A program made the position numbers and the translations under genes. The notes beneath the pieces were generated by a model, which worked only from the letters and a program-made list of their open reading frames with translations, did not search any database and was not told where the DNA came from. This document shows, one piece after another, positions 4,166 to 57,019 of a stretch of DNA of 64,000 nt (positions are counted from its first letter, which is position 1; each line of letters opens with the position of its first letter). Source of the stretch: Nostoc sp. 'Peltigera membranacea cyanobiont' 210A (lineage in GTDB: Bacteria > Cyanobacteriota > Cyanobacteriia > Cyanobacteriales > Nostocaceae); the NCBI RefSeq assembly GCF_002246015.1, contig NZ_NOLJ01000011.1:168079-232078 (forward strand). Reading direction: 5' to 3'.

Positions 4166-4573
4166 TTATGACTCAAAAAAAGCAGCAGGCGAAATATGAA
4201 AAAACTCTGCAAGTTTGCGAATATGGTTAACTGTTAGCTTCCTCTGTCCACTCAAAACTTCAGATACAATAGACTCGGTTTTAAAGATAGGAATTAAGTC
4301 TTTCTGTCGCAAACCAAATTCGGCAATCATTGCTTGAAGTAATTCTACGCCATGAATATCAGGTATAGAATGATGTTTTTGTTCATACTCATAAACCAGA
4401 GTACCTAAAACATTGAGATAGTCTTGTTCATCTGGTGTTAATTCACCTTTATCAATCAAGGAATCAATGACTTCTTGCGTAGCCACTAATTCTTCCTCGG
4501 AAGTTACAGGACGAGGAGGAAATGATTTGAGTAATTCAATATACGTTTTAGTAACAGGTGTTCCAGGGGTCAT
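4166..4573 (-). CDS. HigA-type antitoxin, XRE helix-turn-helix
   Basis: A 135-residue protein whose C-terminal 50 residues form a Cro/C1-type helix-turn-helix (LRQKDLIPIFKTESIVSEVL then SGQRKLTVNHIRKLAEFF). The N-terminal half is acidic, as in HigA antitoxins that precede or follow a HigB toxin of the Pfam HigB_toxin type. The toxin gene lies upstream on the same strand, but separated by 226 bases rather than the usual few; that gap holds a decayed CRISPR-like duplication. The protein should neutralise the toxin and repress the promoter. Confidence 0.85.
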   Translation of the reverse strand: MTPGTPVTKTYIELLKSFPPRPVTSEEELVATQEVIDSLIDKGELTPDEQDYLNVLGTLVYEYEQKHHSIPDIHGVELLQAMIAEFGLRQKDLIPIFKTESIVSEVLSGQRKLTVNHIRKLAEFFHISPAAFFES

Positions 4574-4591
4574 TTTGCCACATATTTGATT

Positions 4592-4628
4592 GTTTCAATC
4601 CCTAATAGGGATTTTGATTAATTGGAAC
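4592..4628 (-). repeat. CRISPR-like 37-bp repeat, copy A
   Basis: A 37-base unit with an internal inverted repeat (AATCCCTAATAGGGATT). Read on the minus strand it begins GTTCCAATTAATC and ends ATTGAAAC, the 8-base handle typical of cyanobacterial type I-D/III repeats. There is no cas gene in the window. The next unit starts 40 bases later, at 4669. Confidence 0.65.
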
Positions 4629-4744
4629 TCAAACACTTATGCTCATATTACTATCCAAATATCTCAGAGCTTCAATCCCTAATAGGGGATTTTAATTAAT
4701 TATAACTTAGGAATTATGTTCATATTACTATCTATATATTTGAG
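4592..4744. repeat. Tandem ~77-bp duplication containing CRISPR-like repeat and conserved 'spacer'
   Basis: Unit A is 4592-4668 and unit B is 4669-4744, with a third start (GCTTCAA) at 4745. Both units begin with the CRISPR-like repeat (B is degenerate, with one extra G and several substitutions), and the stretch after it is also related: TATGCTCATATTACTATC at 4638-4655 against TATGTTCATATTACTATC at 4715-4732. Real CRISPR spacers are unrelated to each other, so this is a duplicated segment or an array with a repeated spacer that has decayed. It lies between toxin and antitoxin genes. Confidence 0.7.
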
Positions 4745-4799
4745 GCTTCAAGGTCTAAAAATGATTTGTAAAATTGTTATCCTAAAATAATAGTTAGCA

Positions 4800-5102
4800 T
4801 CAAGCGAACCAAAGATCATTTTTCCACTCATCTTTGTCATATTCGGCATGTGTCAAGATATGGCGAATAAAGACTTTTTGGCATTTGTAATCTACTAAAG
4901 TAATAAGTCGATAATTATTACCACTTATGTTAAAAACTGTGAAATTACCGACTTGATCGGCTGAGGGAAAAGCCTGGTGTAACTCTACCAAATTCTGCCA
5001 CTCTGCTACAGATGTCAGTTTGTACCATAACCGCAGGCTGGTTTGTGCATTAGAGTGCTTTTCCCAGAACTCAACAAGTCTTGCACGACTGATAATGTGC
5101 AT
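4800..5102 (-). CDS. HigB-type mRNA interferase toxin
   Basis: A 100-residue basic protein beginning MHIISRARLVEFW and containing SLRLWYKLTSVAEWQN, the FNISGNNYRLITLVDYK core and a C-terminal ILTHAEYDKDEW segment. This is the pattern of the HigB_toxin family, RelE-fold ribosome-associated mRNA interferases. It precedes its presumed HigA antitoxin on the same strand. The reading frame looks complete, so the toxin is probably active if expressed. Confidence 0.87.
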   Translation of the reverse strand: MHIISRARLVEFWEKHSNAQTSLRLWYKLTSVAEWQNLVELHQAFPSADQVGNFTVFNISGNNYRLITLVDYKCQKVFIRHILTHAEYDKDEWKNDLWFA

Positions 5103-6595: not shown

Positions 6596-6785
6596 AGAAT
6601 TTTGTGGAGTTGATGGCTTCTGAATTTTATTGTTACGACTTTTCATGTTACTTAGGGTTACAGAAAGCGGTATATTCATGATTGGGGACTAGGGACTGGA
6701 AACTGGGAACTGAAAAAGAAGACAAAGAGGATAATAATGACTCTTGTACAGACGCGATTAATCGCCTCTCTACTCCTAACTCAGC

Positions 6786-6861
6786 ACTCAGCACGGGCTA
6801 AACGCCCCGCTCCCGCTAACAGTACTCAGCACGGGCTAAACGCCCCGCTACCGCTAACAAA
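6786..6861. repeat. Two tandem 38-bp repeats
   Basis: Two nearly identical 38-base units (6786-6823 and 6824-6861) starting ACTCAGCACGGGCTAAACGC and ending CGCTAACA plus two or three bases. A related single copy, with TACGCCCCGCTGCGCTAACA, is at about 10760-10785. These are interspersed Nostoc repeats and sit just upstream of the ParA-type gene, ending about 20 bases before its GTG. Confidence 0.75.
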
Positions 6862-31551: not shown

Positions 31552-31800
31552 CTAGTCAGCTACACAGGACTTACGGATTTTAACGCAAACATAGCATTCT
31601 GCGTAACGAGTCTCTTCTTTTTCTGTGTCCTTTGCGCCTCTGCGTGCAATACCAATTTTTCTCAATCCTGAACAGTAAACCAAAAACTTTTTTTCTAAAG
31701 GGTAAACGCTAATAATTTGCTACGTATACAAAGTTATATAGCCTTTCCTAATCACATAAAGTACATCATAGTCCCCTCTCGAAGAACCTACGGTTTACAC
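31552..31800. other. Intergenic region before the 21-bp array
   Basis: About 250 bases. TTTGCGCCTCTGCGTG (31640-31655) belongs to the interspersed repeat family. The rest is AT-rich and unique. No gene is supported. Confidence 0.4.
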
Positions 31801-32090
31801 ACAAGTACTTTTGTCCAGAACACAAGTACTTTCATTCAGAACACAAGGGCTTTCGTTCAGAACACAAGGACTTTCATTCAGAACACAAGGACTTTCGTTC
31901 AGAACACGAGGACTTTCGTTCAGAATACGAGGACTTTCGTTCAGAACACGAGGACTTTCGTTCAGAATACGAGGACTTTCGTTCAGAATACGAGGACTTT
32001 CGTTCAGAATACGAGGACTTTCGTTCAGAACACGAGGACTTTCGTCCAGAACACGAGAACTTTCGTTCAGAACACAAGTCTTTTTTGAGT
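31801..32090. repeat. 21-bp tandem repeat array (minisatellite 1), 13 full units
   Basis: About thirteen 21-base units plus a partial one, the consensus being AACACGAGGACTTTCGTTCAG. Early units read ACAAG, middle units alternate AATACGAGG and AACACGAGG, and the last unit breaks into AAGTCTTTTTTGAG. As the unit is a multiple of three and lacks stops, several frames stay open and one reads as repeated TRTFVQN, but no start or codon bias supports a protein. It lies about 280 bases upstream of the Trypco1-type gene. Confidence 0.9.
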
Positions 32091-32372
32091 CTTTGAGGGA
32101 ATGAAACAGCTTTCGTTTTCGAGAGGAGTTGGGGGTGGGGTTATTGTACCTAACTCAACTGAGAACCGCTATATAAAATACTTAGGCTGTAATTACTGCT
32201 TATAAAGTTCTGAAACCTTTCAAAAATGAAATGAGCAAAGTGACGTATAGCATATTATTAATTCTTGCCAGATTTAAATTAATCTCGCCCGAAAAATGTA
32301 ACAATACCATATACCTTTCTCTCATTCTTTAGGAAGATCCTTGCACGAAAAATTAACAGAAAAAAAGAAAGT
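32091..32372. promoter_or_regulatory. Leader of the protease/ATPase gene set
   Basis: About 280 unique bases between the repeat array and the first gene of the set, AT-rich at 32160-32290. It should contain the promoter of the three-gene unit. GGAAGATCC (32331-32339) and AAGAAAG just before ATG 32373 are possible ribosome-site elements. Confidence 0.35.
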
Positions 32373-34365: not shown

Positions 34366-37359
34366 ATGTTGCTGTTTTTGCGAGAAACTTGGGAACTATT
34401 TTGGTGGGCAATGTTTTGTCCTTCAAGACTTCAGCAACGAATGAATGAATGGTTTCCTCAAGAAGAAAAAGATGGGCACATACCAGACACAAGTTTTTGG
34501 GATATTTTATATTTCGGAAACTTACGATTTACTAGTCAGTATCTATTACTATTATTTATTTATAATATCCCTCTAATTTTAAGACTGATTGAGCGTAATC
34601 AATTATTAGATTGGTTACAGTTACCTTGTGTAATGTTAATTGCTTATACGACAGGAGTTTTATTTTTACCTTTAGGGCTGGTTATCTCCTTCTTGTGGTT
34701 AATAGTTGTATTAAATAAGCCTGATAGCTGGTTAAAGGGCTTAATAGAAGCTACTAAAATTTTACCTCCTTTACTTCAAATAACGATAGGTCTTGCAGTT
34801 TTGGTAGTATGTTTATCATTAACTGTTTGGTTAGTGTTGCAACGGTTAGAAAAAAAACATCTTTCCCTTACTCATAATGTAATGGTGATAGGGGGAACAA
34901 TCAGTGTGATGTTAGGTGCATGGTTAGCAACTGAAAACTGGTGGTTTCTGTTGTTAACCAGTGGGATGACAGGCTTTGCCTTATTTTTCTTAAAAGAAAA
35001 TATTACGGATAGTGATGATGCGTTTGAAGTGGTGTTCAAAGTGGCGGCAGTCGTGGCGGCAGTCGTGGCGGCAGTCGTGGCAGTAGTCGTGGCGGCAGTC
35101 GTGGCGGGAGTCGTGGCGCGAGCCGTGGCGGCAGTCGTGGCGCGAGTCGTGGCGGCAGTCGTGGCGGTAGTCGTGGCGGGAGTCGTGGCGGTAGTCGTGG
35201 CGGCAGTCGTGGCGCGAGTCGTGGCGCGAGTCGTGGCGGGAGTCGTGGCGCGAGCCGTGGCGGCAGTCGTGGCGGGAGTCGTGGCGGGAGTCGTGGCGGG
35301 AGTCGTGGCGGGAGTCGTGGCGGCAGTCGTGGCGGCAGTCGTGGCGGCAGTCGTGGCGGGAGTTGCTACTTTACCGCTTACTTGGTTTTCGGTTGTTGCA
35401 AGTTTAATCGCTTTTGCTCTTGCACCAGCAAAAGACAACAGAGTTTTTATCACCACTACAGTGATTTTAATAGCTCTTTCTGCCCAAAATTTAGGATGGC
35501 TTTCAGCATTAATTATCCCTGTAACCTTAGTCAGCTATTACAGAATATTTCCTGATTATAGCTTTAGTTTTAACTTAATCATCTCTTTAAGTGGTTATTA
35601 TACATTTCCTGATTATTTACTAAAACTTTTAAGATTTTCAGATTCAACAATTAGGCAGTTACGTCCTCAAACAACAAAAATACTTTTTAAATTACCTCCT
35701 TACACTAGCGAACTCCTGTGGATACCTTTACCTAATCATACTCAACTTCTTGTTTCTGAATTTCGTCAAAGACCTCAACAAGCCTTAACAATCTTTCAAT
35801 ACACCCAAACTTTTTCCTTACCAGGATTTCAAACAACCCTGCAAAATGCCTTACCACAAATTGTCGCCGACCAACTCAAGCAAATTCAAAGTATTCCAGA
35901 ACTAATCTTTACTGCCAACTCCGACCATCCCATATTACCCTTCCTGATTTCCCCCTTCTATCACCTCGATTCTGACAGCAACACCCCTACTCCAGAAACA
36001 CCTTTACCAAAGGTTAAACCTGAACTTTCTATCCTTCTTCCTCGCTTGCAAACTATTATTCAAGATATTCAATCTGCACTTGAAAATCAAAATATACCCC
36101 TACGAGAACGAGGATTAGAACAAATCAATAACAAGCTTGTTCGATTACAATCCCAATTACCCTCTCTGGGACTTAAAAACGAAGTCATCAAACGCTGGAC
36201 ACCTGTACTGGAACATTGGCAAAAGGTTATTGAACTGGAACAAACTGAACAACGTAAACTCTCTCAAGGCGAACTAATCAACCCGTTCCAATATGGAAAT
36301 CCGGTGCGACTTGACCAAAAAAACTTGTTTAAAGGTCGTCAGAGATTTGCCAATGAAATTGTCCGTCGAGTTTTAGACCGTGACCGACCTACCCTTGTGC
36401 TGCATGGCCCCCGTCGCTGTGGTAAAACTTCCTTTTTGTATAACTTTCCCCGCCTGCTTCCCAGTGATATCCTCCCCGTATTTGTGGATATGCAAAGTTC
36501 CGCCATTACCACCAACGAATCTGACTTTTGCTTTGGCTTAGTCCGTGCAATTCATAAAGACTGCAAAAGTCAAGGCGTTCAATTACCAAATATTCCTAAA
36601 CGCACCGATTTTCAAGCAAGTCCCTATACCACCTTAGAAGATTGGTTGGATGAAGCACCTGCCAAAATTGGCGAACGGCGCATCCTTCTCAACCTTGATG
36701 AATTTGAAAAAATCGGTACTGCCATCCAAAACGGACAGATAACTTTACGTTTATTTGACCAACTACGCCACTTAATTCAACATTATGAACAACTCGGTTT
36801 TCTCTTTTCTGGGGTGCAAACTTTAGAGGAATTAGGCCCAAATTGGAGTAACTATTTTATCAGCGTTGTCCCGATAGAAATGCTTTATCTTGAACCTAAC
36901 GAAGCCGAGGATTTACTGCTTAATCCAGATCCAGATTTTACACTGCGTTACGCTCCAGATATTGTAAAAGAAGTATTAAAGATTACCAATTGTCACCCTT
37001 ACTGCCTACAATTATTGGGCGCATCAATGGTGAATCAAGCTAACTTTAACCATACTGATTTTCTTACTGCTGAACTCTTGCAAGCTTCTATTAATGACGC
37101 ATTTGTTTCCGGTCAAGCTTATTTTACAAATATTTGGACAGAATTTACAGGAACTACACCAGAAGAAATGGTAATTGGTCAAGAATTATTATTACAAGTT
37201 GCCAAGACAGATATTTTATTACCTATAACTACTGAAATTGCTGAAAAGGTATTAACCCGCTTGTTGCGTTATCATATTTTACAAAAAATCAATGGAGGAT
37301 ATGATTTTGAAATTCCTCTGCTAAAACAATGGGTGAGAGAGCGTGCAGTAAGAAGCTAA
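34366..37359 (+). CDS. Membrane protein with variable repeat region and C-terminal P-loop ATPase
   Basis: A 997-residue protein. Residues about 45-225 hold several hydrophobic helices; residues 226-333 are a Val/Ala-rich tract coded by 27 tandem 12-base units; further helices follow to about 430. The cytoplasmic part includes a helical segment (about 540-630), the linker NPFQYGNPV and an ATPase with Walker [10 protein letters not shown] (681-689) and Walker [11 protein letters not shown] (D778, E779). Linker and ATPase resemble those of the preceding protease gene, so the two proteins may assemble through like domains. I infer a membrane-anchored sensor or effector. No named family covers the whole protein to my knowledge. 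Confidence 0.85.
35041..35364. repeat. 12-bp in-frame tandem repeat, 27 units
   Basis: Twenty-seven perfect-length units of the form GTGGCGNNAGTC (variants GGC, GGG, GCG, GGT at the middle; the fourth unit has GTGGCAGTAGTC). The units code V-A-x-V with x = Ala, Gly, Arg or Val. GC content is far above the AT-rich gene around it. Being a multiple of three, gain or loss of units changes length without breaking the frame. The reverse strand is also open here, which is a consequence of the repeat. Confidence 0.95.
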
Positions 37360-56534: not shown

Positions 56535-56570
56535 GAGCAGGGGGCAGGGGGCAGGGGGCAGAGGAGATAT
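56535..56570. repeat. GGGGGCA tandem repeat
   Basis: Three GGGGGCA copies between GGAGCA and GAGGAGAT; the mirror CCCCCTGCC copies occur at 56870-56900, flanking the 21-bp array on both sides. Confidence 0.6.
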
Positions 56571-56604
56571 GTTTTAGAATGCAATGTTAGTGTCACTATA
56601 CTTT

Positions 56605-56835
56605 AATGAGTCTTTGATACTCATTAATGAGGCTTTGAACTCCTTTAATGAGGTTTTGATACTCATTAATGAGGCTTTGAACTCCTTTAATGAGGTTTTG
56701 ATACTCATTAATGAGTCTTTGAACTCCTTTAATGAGTCTTTGAACTCCTTTAATGAGTCTTTGATACTCATTAATGAGGCTTTGAACTCCTTTAATGAGT
56801 CTTTGATACTCATTAATGAGGCTTTGATACTTGCA
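56605..56835. repeat. 21-bp tandem repeat array (minisatellite 2), 11 units
   Basis: Eleven units of 21 bases with two alternating forms: A = AATGAGTCTTTGATACTCATT and B = AATGAGGCTTTGAACTCCTTT, the order being A B A B A B B A B A A'. The A form ends in the self-complementary ACTCATTAATGAG at unit joins. Multiple frames on both strands stay open (one reading NEALNSF, another KEFKASL), which follows from the unit length. No start, ribosome site or codon bias supports a protein. Confidence 0.93.
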
Positions 56836-57019
56836 GACGTAGCTTGGAACTTTTCCCCCTACTCCTCTGCCCCCTGCCTCCTGCCTCCTGCCCCCTGCCT
56901 CTTCATTGACTGTATATCTGGTAATACCTGCTCTCAAAAACTTTGATTTTTTAATGACTTTATATTTAGATACTTCGGTATTATAGGATGGACGGAGTGT
57001 TGCAAGGCTTGGGGCTATT

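Follow-up and report, generated by a model that had tools for sequence, protein, structure and literature searches.

CRISPR-type repeats that lie outside arrays already form a known class, the "ectopic repeats" (PMC9458426, in its accessible text). In CreTA, according to the accessible text of two reports, CreT and CreA are each an RNA, the latter directing Cascade to the promoter of the toxin (PMC8501985, PMC9458426); its CRISPR-type repeats lie outside arrays and inside the toxin-antitoxin locus, where two of them, one more degenerate than the other, surround a spacer-like interval. Single intact CRISPR repeats outside arrays are also found as Racrs or solitary repeat units, and Racrs are described as phage-encoded inhibitors in the available portion of that report (PMC10651486). 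As far as the text of these sources extends, the CRISPR-linked toxin-antitoxin pairs found in print use RNA guides, and within the accessible text of the open-licence literature we found no report that places a CRISPR repeat within the operon of a protein toxin-antitoxin pair, whether HigBA or another.

Here we describe CRISPR-type repeats that separate a toxin gene from its antitoxin gene in Nostoc sp. 'Peltigera membranacea cyanobiont' 210A, within a window of 64,000 nt, the whole stretch of DNA that was analyzed (NZ_NOLJ01000011.1, positions 168,079 to 232,078). The locus shares with CreTA, as far as the latter is described in the accessible text, both its setting and its repeat-interval-repeat layout. 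It differs in that toxin and antitoxin are proteins (HigB, PF09907) and not RNAs, and in that the interval drifts and is without a promoter match, whereas the repeat itself is conserved. Unlike the Racrs, it lies in a toxin-antitoxin operon at a conserved genomic place. It is thus apparently the repeat, and not the spacer, that has been retained within this operon for a protein toxin and its antitoxin. Our favored reading, to which we assign a probability of roughly 0.4, is that a CRISPR repeat unit was captured at this junction and that the copy next to higA, repeat A, may have been retained as an RNA hairpin or processing element at the higA 5' end.

The features of the locus are collected in the table. 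As in type II HigBA operons generally, higB precedes higA in one direction and a RelE-like toxin is followed by a HigA-like HTH antitoxin; by the protein matches, the pair is a HigBA-type toxin-antitoxin operon. The match of the higA product to Pfam HTH_3 is weak (E=0.007, under the Pfam cut-off), and the position of the gene downstream of higB in homologues too is a further basis for its identification as the antitoxin. From the higB stop (4800) to the higA start (4573) there is a gap of 226 nt (4799-4574, minus strand), as the original prediction had stated. This branch of HigBA is unlike most measured homologues, in which the genes overlap: 95-227 nt of CRISPR-repeat sequence stand between them. 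A second higBA pair is present in the same genome (G000:C6:49776-50460), with HigB 61% and HigA 66% identical to the pair in the window.

Table. Features of the higBA locus, in window coordinates.
Feature	Position	Strand	Description	Match
higB	4800..5102	minus	RelE-like mRNA-interferase toxin gene, 100 aa	Pfam PF09907 HigB_toxin E=3.1e-31
T0	4793..4826	minus	higB-end copy of the duplicated gene overlap	aligns to T3 and outgroup overlaps
Repeat C	4781-4745 (4745..4781)	minus	third repeat, strongly decayed; clearest in the G059 orthologue	
Interval S1	4707..4744	minus	38 nt in own genome; 39 nt in NMS2, G006 and G059	
Repeat B	4706-4669 (4669..4706)	minus	degenerate, one inserted base; 5' end reads GTTATAAT	
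Interval S2 ('spacer')	4629..4668	minus	40 nt	related to S1 in own genome
Repeat A	4628-4592 (4592..4628)	minus	intact 37 nt, 18 nt before the higA start codon; reads GTTCCAATTAATCAAAATCCCTATTAGGGATTGAAAC	
Leader	4574..4591	minus	18 nt from repeat A to the higA ATG	
T3	4548..4580	minus	higA-start copy of the duplicated gene overlap	
higA	4166..4573	minus	antitoxin gene, 135 aa, HTH	phmmer to PDB 5ycl and 5ifg 'Antitoxin HigA' E=2e-9

Three tandem CRISPR-type repeats of 37-38 nt, on the minus strand and in array orientation, lie in the gap. The original prediction had described a CRISPR-like repeat duplicated with its 'spacer' between the two genes; two related 77-nt units are indeed present at 4592-4744 (38 nt at 79% and 31 nt at 84% identity, spacing 77), but the third, decayed repeat C was missed. 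In the orthologue of genome G059 this repeat reads GATACCAATTTTAAAAATACTTGTTAGGGATTAAAAC. The ATTGAAAC end and the internal palindrome noted on the minus strand of copy A were likewise borne out, repeat A being predicted to form a hairpin with a 7-bp stem (-7.8 kcal/mol) and ATTGAAAC at its end. In the own genome S1 and S2 align over 31 nt with a score that 0 of 2000 shuffles reach; in the two other genomes covered by this comparison the relation is weaker (p=0.05 in the genome of Nostoc sp. NMS2 and p=0.14 in G006). The 'spacer' of the first unit does therefore recur in the second, as had been remarked, but the recurrence reflects a duplicated repeat-plus-interval unit. A TCAGATAT-like sequence opens the intervals and the DNA that follows repeat A. 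The junction RNA as a whole (241 nt) is not unusually stable (z=-0.69), and the sole terminator-like match in the element is on the plus strand (4676-4688) and so is not a terminator for the operon. We also considered a derivation of S2 from the gene overlap (T2 against T0/T3), which is not claimed (p=0.05-0.13 in NMS2 and G006, 0.5-0.7 in the own genome).

Comparison with the arrays of the host genome (G000; 8.3 Mb, 30 contigs), which had been proposed as a check, revealed close kinship. Repeat A differs at 3 of 37 positions from the array repeat of C1, C26 and C27 (34/37 identity) and at 6 of 37 from those of C12 and C23, and a 22-nt segment comprising its hairpin and handle is identical in all five arrays (C1, 26 repeats; C12, 20; C23, 35; C26, 29; C27, 14 in the stretch read). 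The idea would have lost its footing had no array used this repeat; none has the identical 37-mer, but these five use sister repeats. Among the 100 places listed of 125 at which a 17-nt core occurs in the own genome, 98 belong to arrays; the other two are this locus and C25:214360. A search of 388 genomes of the order, a sample that includes only part of the genus genomes, gave repeat A with at most one mismatch in 4 of them: exactly in G000 and NMS2, at the higBA locus, and with one difference in 37 in arrays of two other genera (G423 and G393), where the matches stand in array-like rows. A place within two mismatches was present in 17 of 53 genus genomes, and among the matches listed there, which leave out 12 places of G002 and 3 of G074, exact copies occur only in G000, NMS2 and G006, each at the higBA locus. 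Judged by these comparisons, the repeats in the gap are true CRISPR repeats of the host's own repeat family. The closeness of A to the host arrays, and the recurrence of the element at one place in other genomes of the genus, speak against a chance likeness.

The own type I-D arrays (C1, and C26 and C27 with the same repeat) resemble the element in the 37-nt repeat with its identical 22-nt hairpin and handle, and the period is similar (77 in the element and about 72 in the arrays). The element is unlike them in having only three repeats, two of them degenerate, and intervals that in the own genome are mutual copies. Direct repeats that match a host array repeat are thus represented by repeat A, B and C being degenerate, and unique, unrelated spacers are lacking, since in the own genome S1 is related to S2 and, across species, the intervals are orthologous. 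By eye, no array leader was recognized before repeat C in comparison with the own array flanks; the higB end stands there. The suggestion of a mini-array relic therefore holds for the origin, a true CRISPR repeat in three units, but not for a normal array, because no leader was recognized by eye, the own intervals are mutual copies and B and C decay. Nor does the element look like a working array, as its intervals drift and these two repeats decay. Two further repeat-like sites were seen in the own genome. A lone CRISPR repeat at G000:C25:214357-214390, preceded by DNA that aligns to the C1 array leader region, looks like a decayed array stub. A hairpin, CCAATCCCGATTAGGGATTGAAATAATTCAGATATG, stands at G000:C27:620540-620573 directly before the start codon of a NIL-domain gene and is followed by CAGATAT, as in the higBA element; it may be either chance or a second ectopic repeat.

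The element occurs at the orthologous place in five Nostoc genomes (own; NMS2, gap 226 nt; G006, 227 nt; NMS4; and G059, with three repeats), and three further genomes hold relics of it; flanking DNA on both sides is common to the window and the carrier and relic genomes. In NMS4 (G005) the gap is 95 nt with one hybrid repeat, whereas in G063 and G064 one repeat stands before a higA fragment and no higB was found; the G025 relic is only the last part of one repeat. Two of these cases count against the favored reading: NMS4 keeps both genes, and its repeat stem has lost one pair (-3.3 against -7.8 kcal/mol), and G006 has an early stop codon in higB, yet its repeat A is intact. The HigA proteins of the carriers fall in one clade, together with those of G022 and Komarekiella (FastTree, midpoint root, modest inner supports), and these two are apparently deletion derivatives without the element. 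At the four-fold sites of higA, pairwise differences range from 4/54 to 11/50. On these comparisons, capture of the repeat unit in an ancestor of several Nostoc species is well supported. At two loci, L186 (G011) and L096 (Komarekiella), the front of higB is joined to the rear of higA, which looks like deletions across the junction. Two other origins were considered and are disfavored. With the motif GATTGAAACNNTCAGATATNTGG (at most one mismatch) confined to higBA orthologues among 53 genus genomes, no dispersed mobile family is seen; and no exact 33-mer match was found in viral_contigs, which speaks, along with the shared flanks in several genomes, against a phage origin and a mobile origin of the Racr kind.

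Overlap is the commonest junction state among the measured higBA homologues. In a first set of 30 loci, 27 junctions were measured (no HigA match was found at the other 3), giving 20 overlaps, 4 junctions with the element and 3 others of 17, 19 and 154 nt. A second set of 64 loci, which shares some genomes with the first and repeats some internally, gave 42 measured junctions, with 24 overlaps (the Komarekiella derivative included), 2 with the element and 16 other gaps without CRISPR-like sequence, among them L116, a misread from a broken frame; 22 of the 64 gave no gap value. Repeat-like junction sequence (a 19-mer, at most 5 mismatches) was present at 2 of the 64 loci, the Nostoc orthologues L090 and L091, and L132 and L133 have a weak repeat-like match about 450 nt from the junction. 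The overlap found in most other measured homologues is usually about 20 nt, and higB and higA also overlap in the outgroups Scytonema RU_4_4 and Tolypothrix campylonemoides.

Both the higB end and the higA start of the carriers match this outgroup overlap. In the T0/T3 test, which covered the own genome, NMS2, G006 and NMS4, an alignment as good arose in 0 of 2000 shuffles in the own genome and NMS2 and in 2 of 2000 in G006; NMS4 reached only p=0.066, which counts against the model. In an ungapped comparison with an outgroup, and counted from the higA ATG, T0 of the own genome extends to about +26 to +34 and T3 begins near -8, which gives the duplicated overlap a length of about 35-43 nt. With that length of overlap present in two copies, the insert has split the genes and left both whole.

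Conservation within the gap was assessed in the four full-length orthologues only (own, NMS2, G006 and G059); NMS4, G063 and G064, with their hybrid repeat, and the G025 relic, whose repeats differ from A, were left out of the column count. Repeat A has 1 variable column in 37, against 60 in 191 elsewhere in the gap (Fisher p=7.5e-5). In order along the minus strand, the counts elsewhere are 5/18 before repeat C, 14/38 in C, 14/38 in S1, 8/38 in B, 12/41 in S2 and 7/18 after A. The sole 37-column window with at most one variable column starts at the first base of repeat A. Its single change is an A to C in G059, and C also stands at this position in the C1 array repeats. Within A, no column of the 3' 24 nt varies (p=1e-4); conservation of the 5' 13 nt taken alone is borderline (p=0.05). 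Gene conversion from arrays that share the 22-nt core could partly mimic such conservation, but B and C did not profit from it. None of the four genomes has an array repeat within one mismatch of A; places within two mismatches besides the locus are absent from the own genome, NMS2 and G059 and number eight, all at two, in G006. We infer that repeat A has been kept by selection. That it persists while the intervals drift is evidence for a role exerted at this one site and not for a guide RNA; repeat A would then work as a signal in RNA and not in guiding a defense against viruses.

Among the three ideas of the original prediction, the RNA processing site fits best, because it is exactly the 37-nt repeat next to higA that is conserved. 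In the reading we favor, a CRISPR repeat unit was captured at the junction of an overlapping higB-higA operon and now stands in three tandem copies, oriented so that the operon mRNA carries the repeat as array RNA does; this much is well supported. Repeat A would fold in the operon RNA into the array hairpin and may serve the processing or the stability of the higA mRNA at its 5' end. The most likely cutter would be the type I-D Cas6, acting just after the stem and leaving AUUGAAAC plus 18 nt before the AUG, that is, a 5' UTR of 26 nt made up of ATTGAAAC and the 18-nt leader. With the overlap of the genes lost, such a cut would detach the antitoxin mRNA from the toxin mRNA. In Synechocystis, as the accessible text of one report has it, the I-D Cas6 recognizes both the sequence and the stem-loop and cleaves behind the stem, so that a handle of 8 nt remains (PMC10212523); another Synechocystis array is matured by RNase E, according to the available part of a second report (PMC6604393), so a host RNase is also a possible cutter. 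If Cas6 does cut the repeat in the mRNA, array repeats can be exapted to control gene expression, and a toxin switch could respond to the state of the immune system. The series of orthologues from overlapping through three-repeat and one-repeat junctions to relics makes the question directly testable.

Beside the C1 array of the sister repeat, the own genome has type I-D genes for Csc2, Csc1, Cas3', Cas6, Cas4 and Cas1d, with a Cas10d/Csc3 match (E=1.7e-7) under its cut-off; Cas2 was outside the search. C12 carries a type III-A module, whose Cas6 scored weakly, as well as another Cas6. The I-D Cas6 has a close relative in 9 of 9 other genomes checked (72-96% identity). Its presence in 10 of 10 genomes means that repeat and Cas6 cannot be compared by presence and absence, which counts against the model. 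Exact copies of the 22-nt hairpin and handle number 17 to 162 per genome in ten genomes, the higBA locus included where intact.

A more specific form of the proposal, which we consider improbable, is a guide-free wiring in which the I-D Cas6 would cut the repeat in the higBA mRNA and so set the antitoxin supply. If this were true, loss or inhibition of Cas6 would change the ratio of HigA to HigB and might release the toxin, so that the operon would guard CRISPR-Cas without any guide. Cas1-Cas2 duplicates the array repeat, here of 37 nt, on spacer addition; the duplicated target of 35-43 nt is close to this length, and stray Cas1-Cas2 integration is a possible origin of the unit.

A serious rival to a processing signal is a putative promoter in repeat B. 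On this account, which we judge somewhat unlikely, the insert would have given higA its own promoter and leader after the overlap was lost, and would act as DNA or as 5' UTR with no part for Cas proteins. Repeat B starts with GTTATAAT, which matches the -10 box perfectly, the corresponding letters of repeat A being GTTCCAAT; repeat A would then be a leader hairpin or part of the promoter or operator. TATAAT is kept in 7 of 7 genomes with a full repeat read at the locus: the own genome, NMS2, G006 and G059 have it in repeat B, and NMS4, G063 and G064 in their only repeat, the hybrid one. The first 18 columns of repeat B have 1 variable column, and where deletion has left one hybrid repeat, this combines the end with TATAAT and the end with the hairpin. 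A consensus scan, however, found no sigma-70-type promoter in the junction, and so no matching -35; its sole promoter match lies inside higB (4943-4914, minus strand). A promoter would also leave unexplained the exact coincidence of the conserved block with the CRISPR repeat at either end.

Decay without function is unlikely. The element would then be a non-functional, decaying mini-array in which A looks conserved through chance, recency or gene conversion from arrays, as the clear decay of repeats B and C, the persistence of remnants where higB is gone (G063, G064 and G025) and the changed repeats of NMS4 and of G063/G064 would allow. Yet A and its neighbors were compared in the same four genomes and differ sharply in variability, and with every array repeat there more than one mismatch from A, no donor for whole-length conversion is present in them.

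We consider it very unlikely that S1 or S2, flanked by repeats, acts as a crRNA-like guide RNA that represses higB in the manner of CreTA or targets phage; a guide RNA controlling the toxin was among the ideas of the original prediction. The layout, the presence of I-D effector genes and interval lengths of 38-40 nt, within the array spacer range of 30-42 (four arrays), are compatible with a guide. The left-hand repeats are degenerate, however, and both intervals drift. In the own genome, with no PAM required and seed positions 1-5 and 7-11, the best interval seed against the higB promoter region matched 7 of 10 positions, a level reached by 90-92% of 500 shuffles; own-genome matches of the whole gap run through array repeats, apart from two of 19-20 nt; and all gap matches with E<0.1 in the phage and plasmid collections lie on repeats, one phage match running 10 nt past A. 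The proposed check for a spacer match to a phage or to the toxin promoter thus gave nothing beyond the repeats and the shuffle level. It is just as improbable that the RNA of a solitary intact repeat binds Cas6/Cas7 as a decoy and dampens the host I-D system, as phage Racrs do in the accessible part of their report (PMC10651486), since the repeat sits in a toxin-antitoxin operon at a conserved place and not, as far as recognized, in a prophage, and the 58-123 exact hairpin-core copies per genome in the four full-length carriers, higBA locus included, would compete.

Short repeat-like matches of 88-92% were also seen at four places in Microcystis phage LMM01 (L242, 35762), at two in Nostoc phage YongM (L241, 62849) and at one in the Nostoc plasmid pNPM10 (L240, 18694), which carries a protelomerase gene; the YongM and pNPM10 places lie outside listed genes. 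They are possible solitary repeat units or mini-arrays. Elsewhere in the window, two 38-nt tandem copies, 95% alike, stand at 6782-6857 directly before a gene that we take from its sequence to encode a ParA-like ATPase, and long tandem arrays of 12-nt and 21-nt units occupy 34981-35435, 31736-32120 and 56561-56875.
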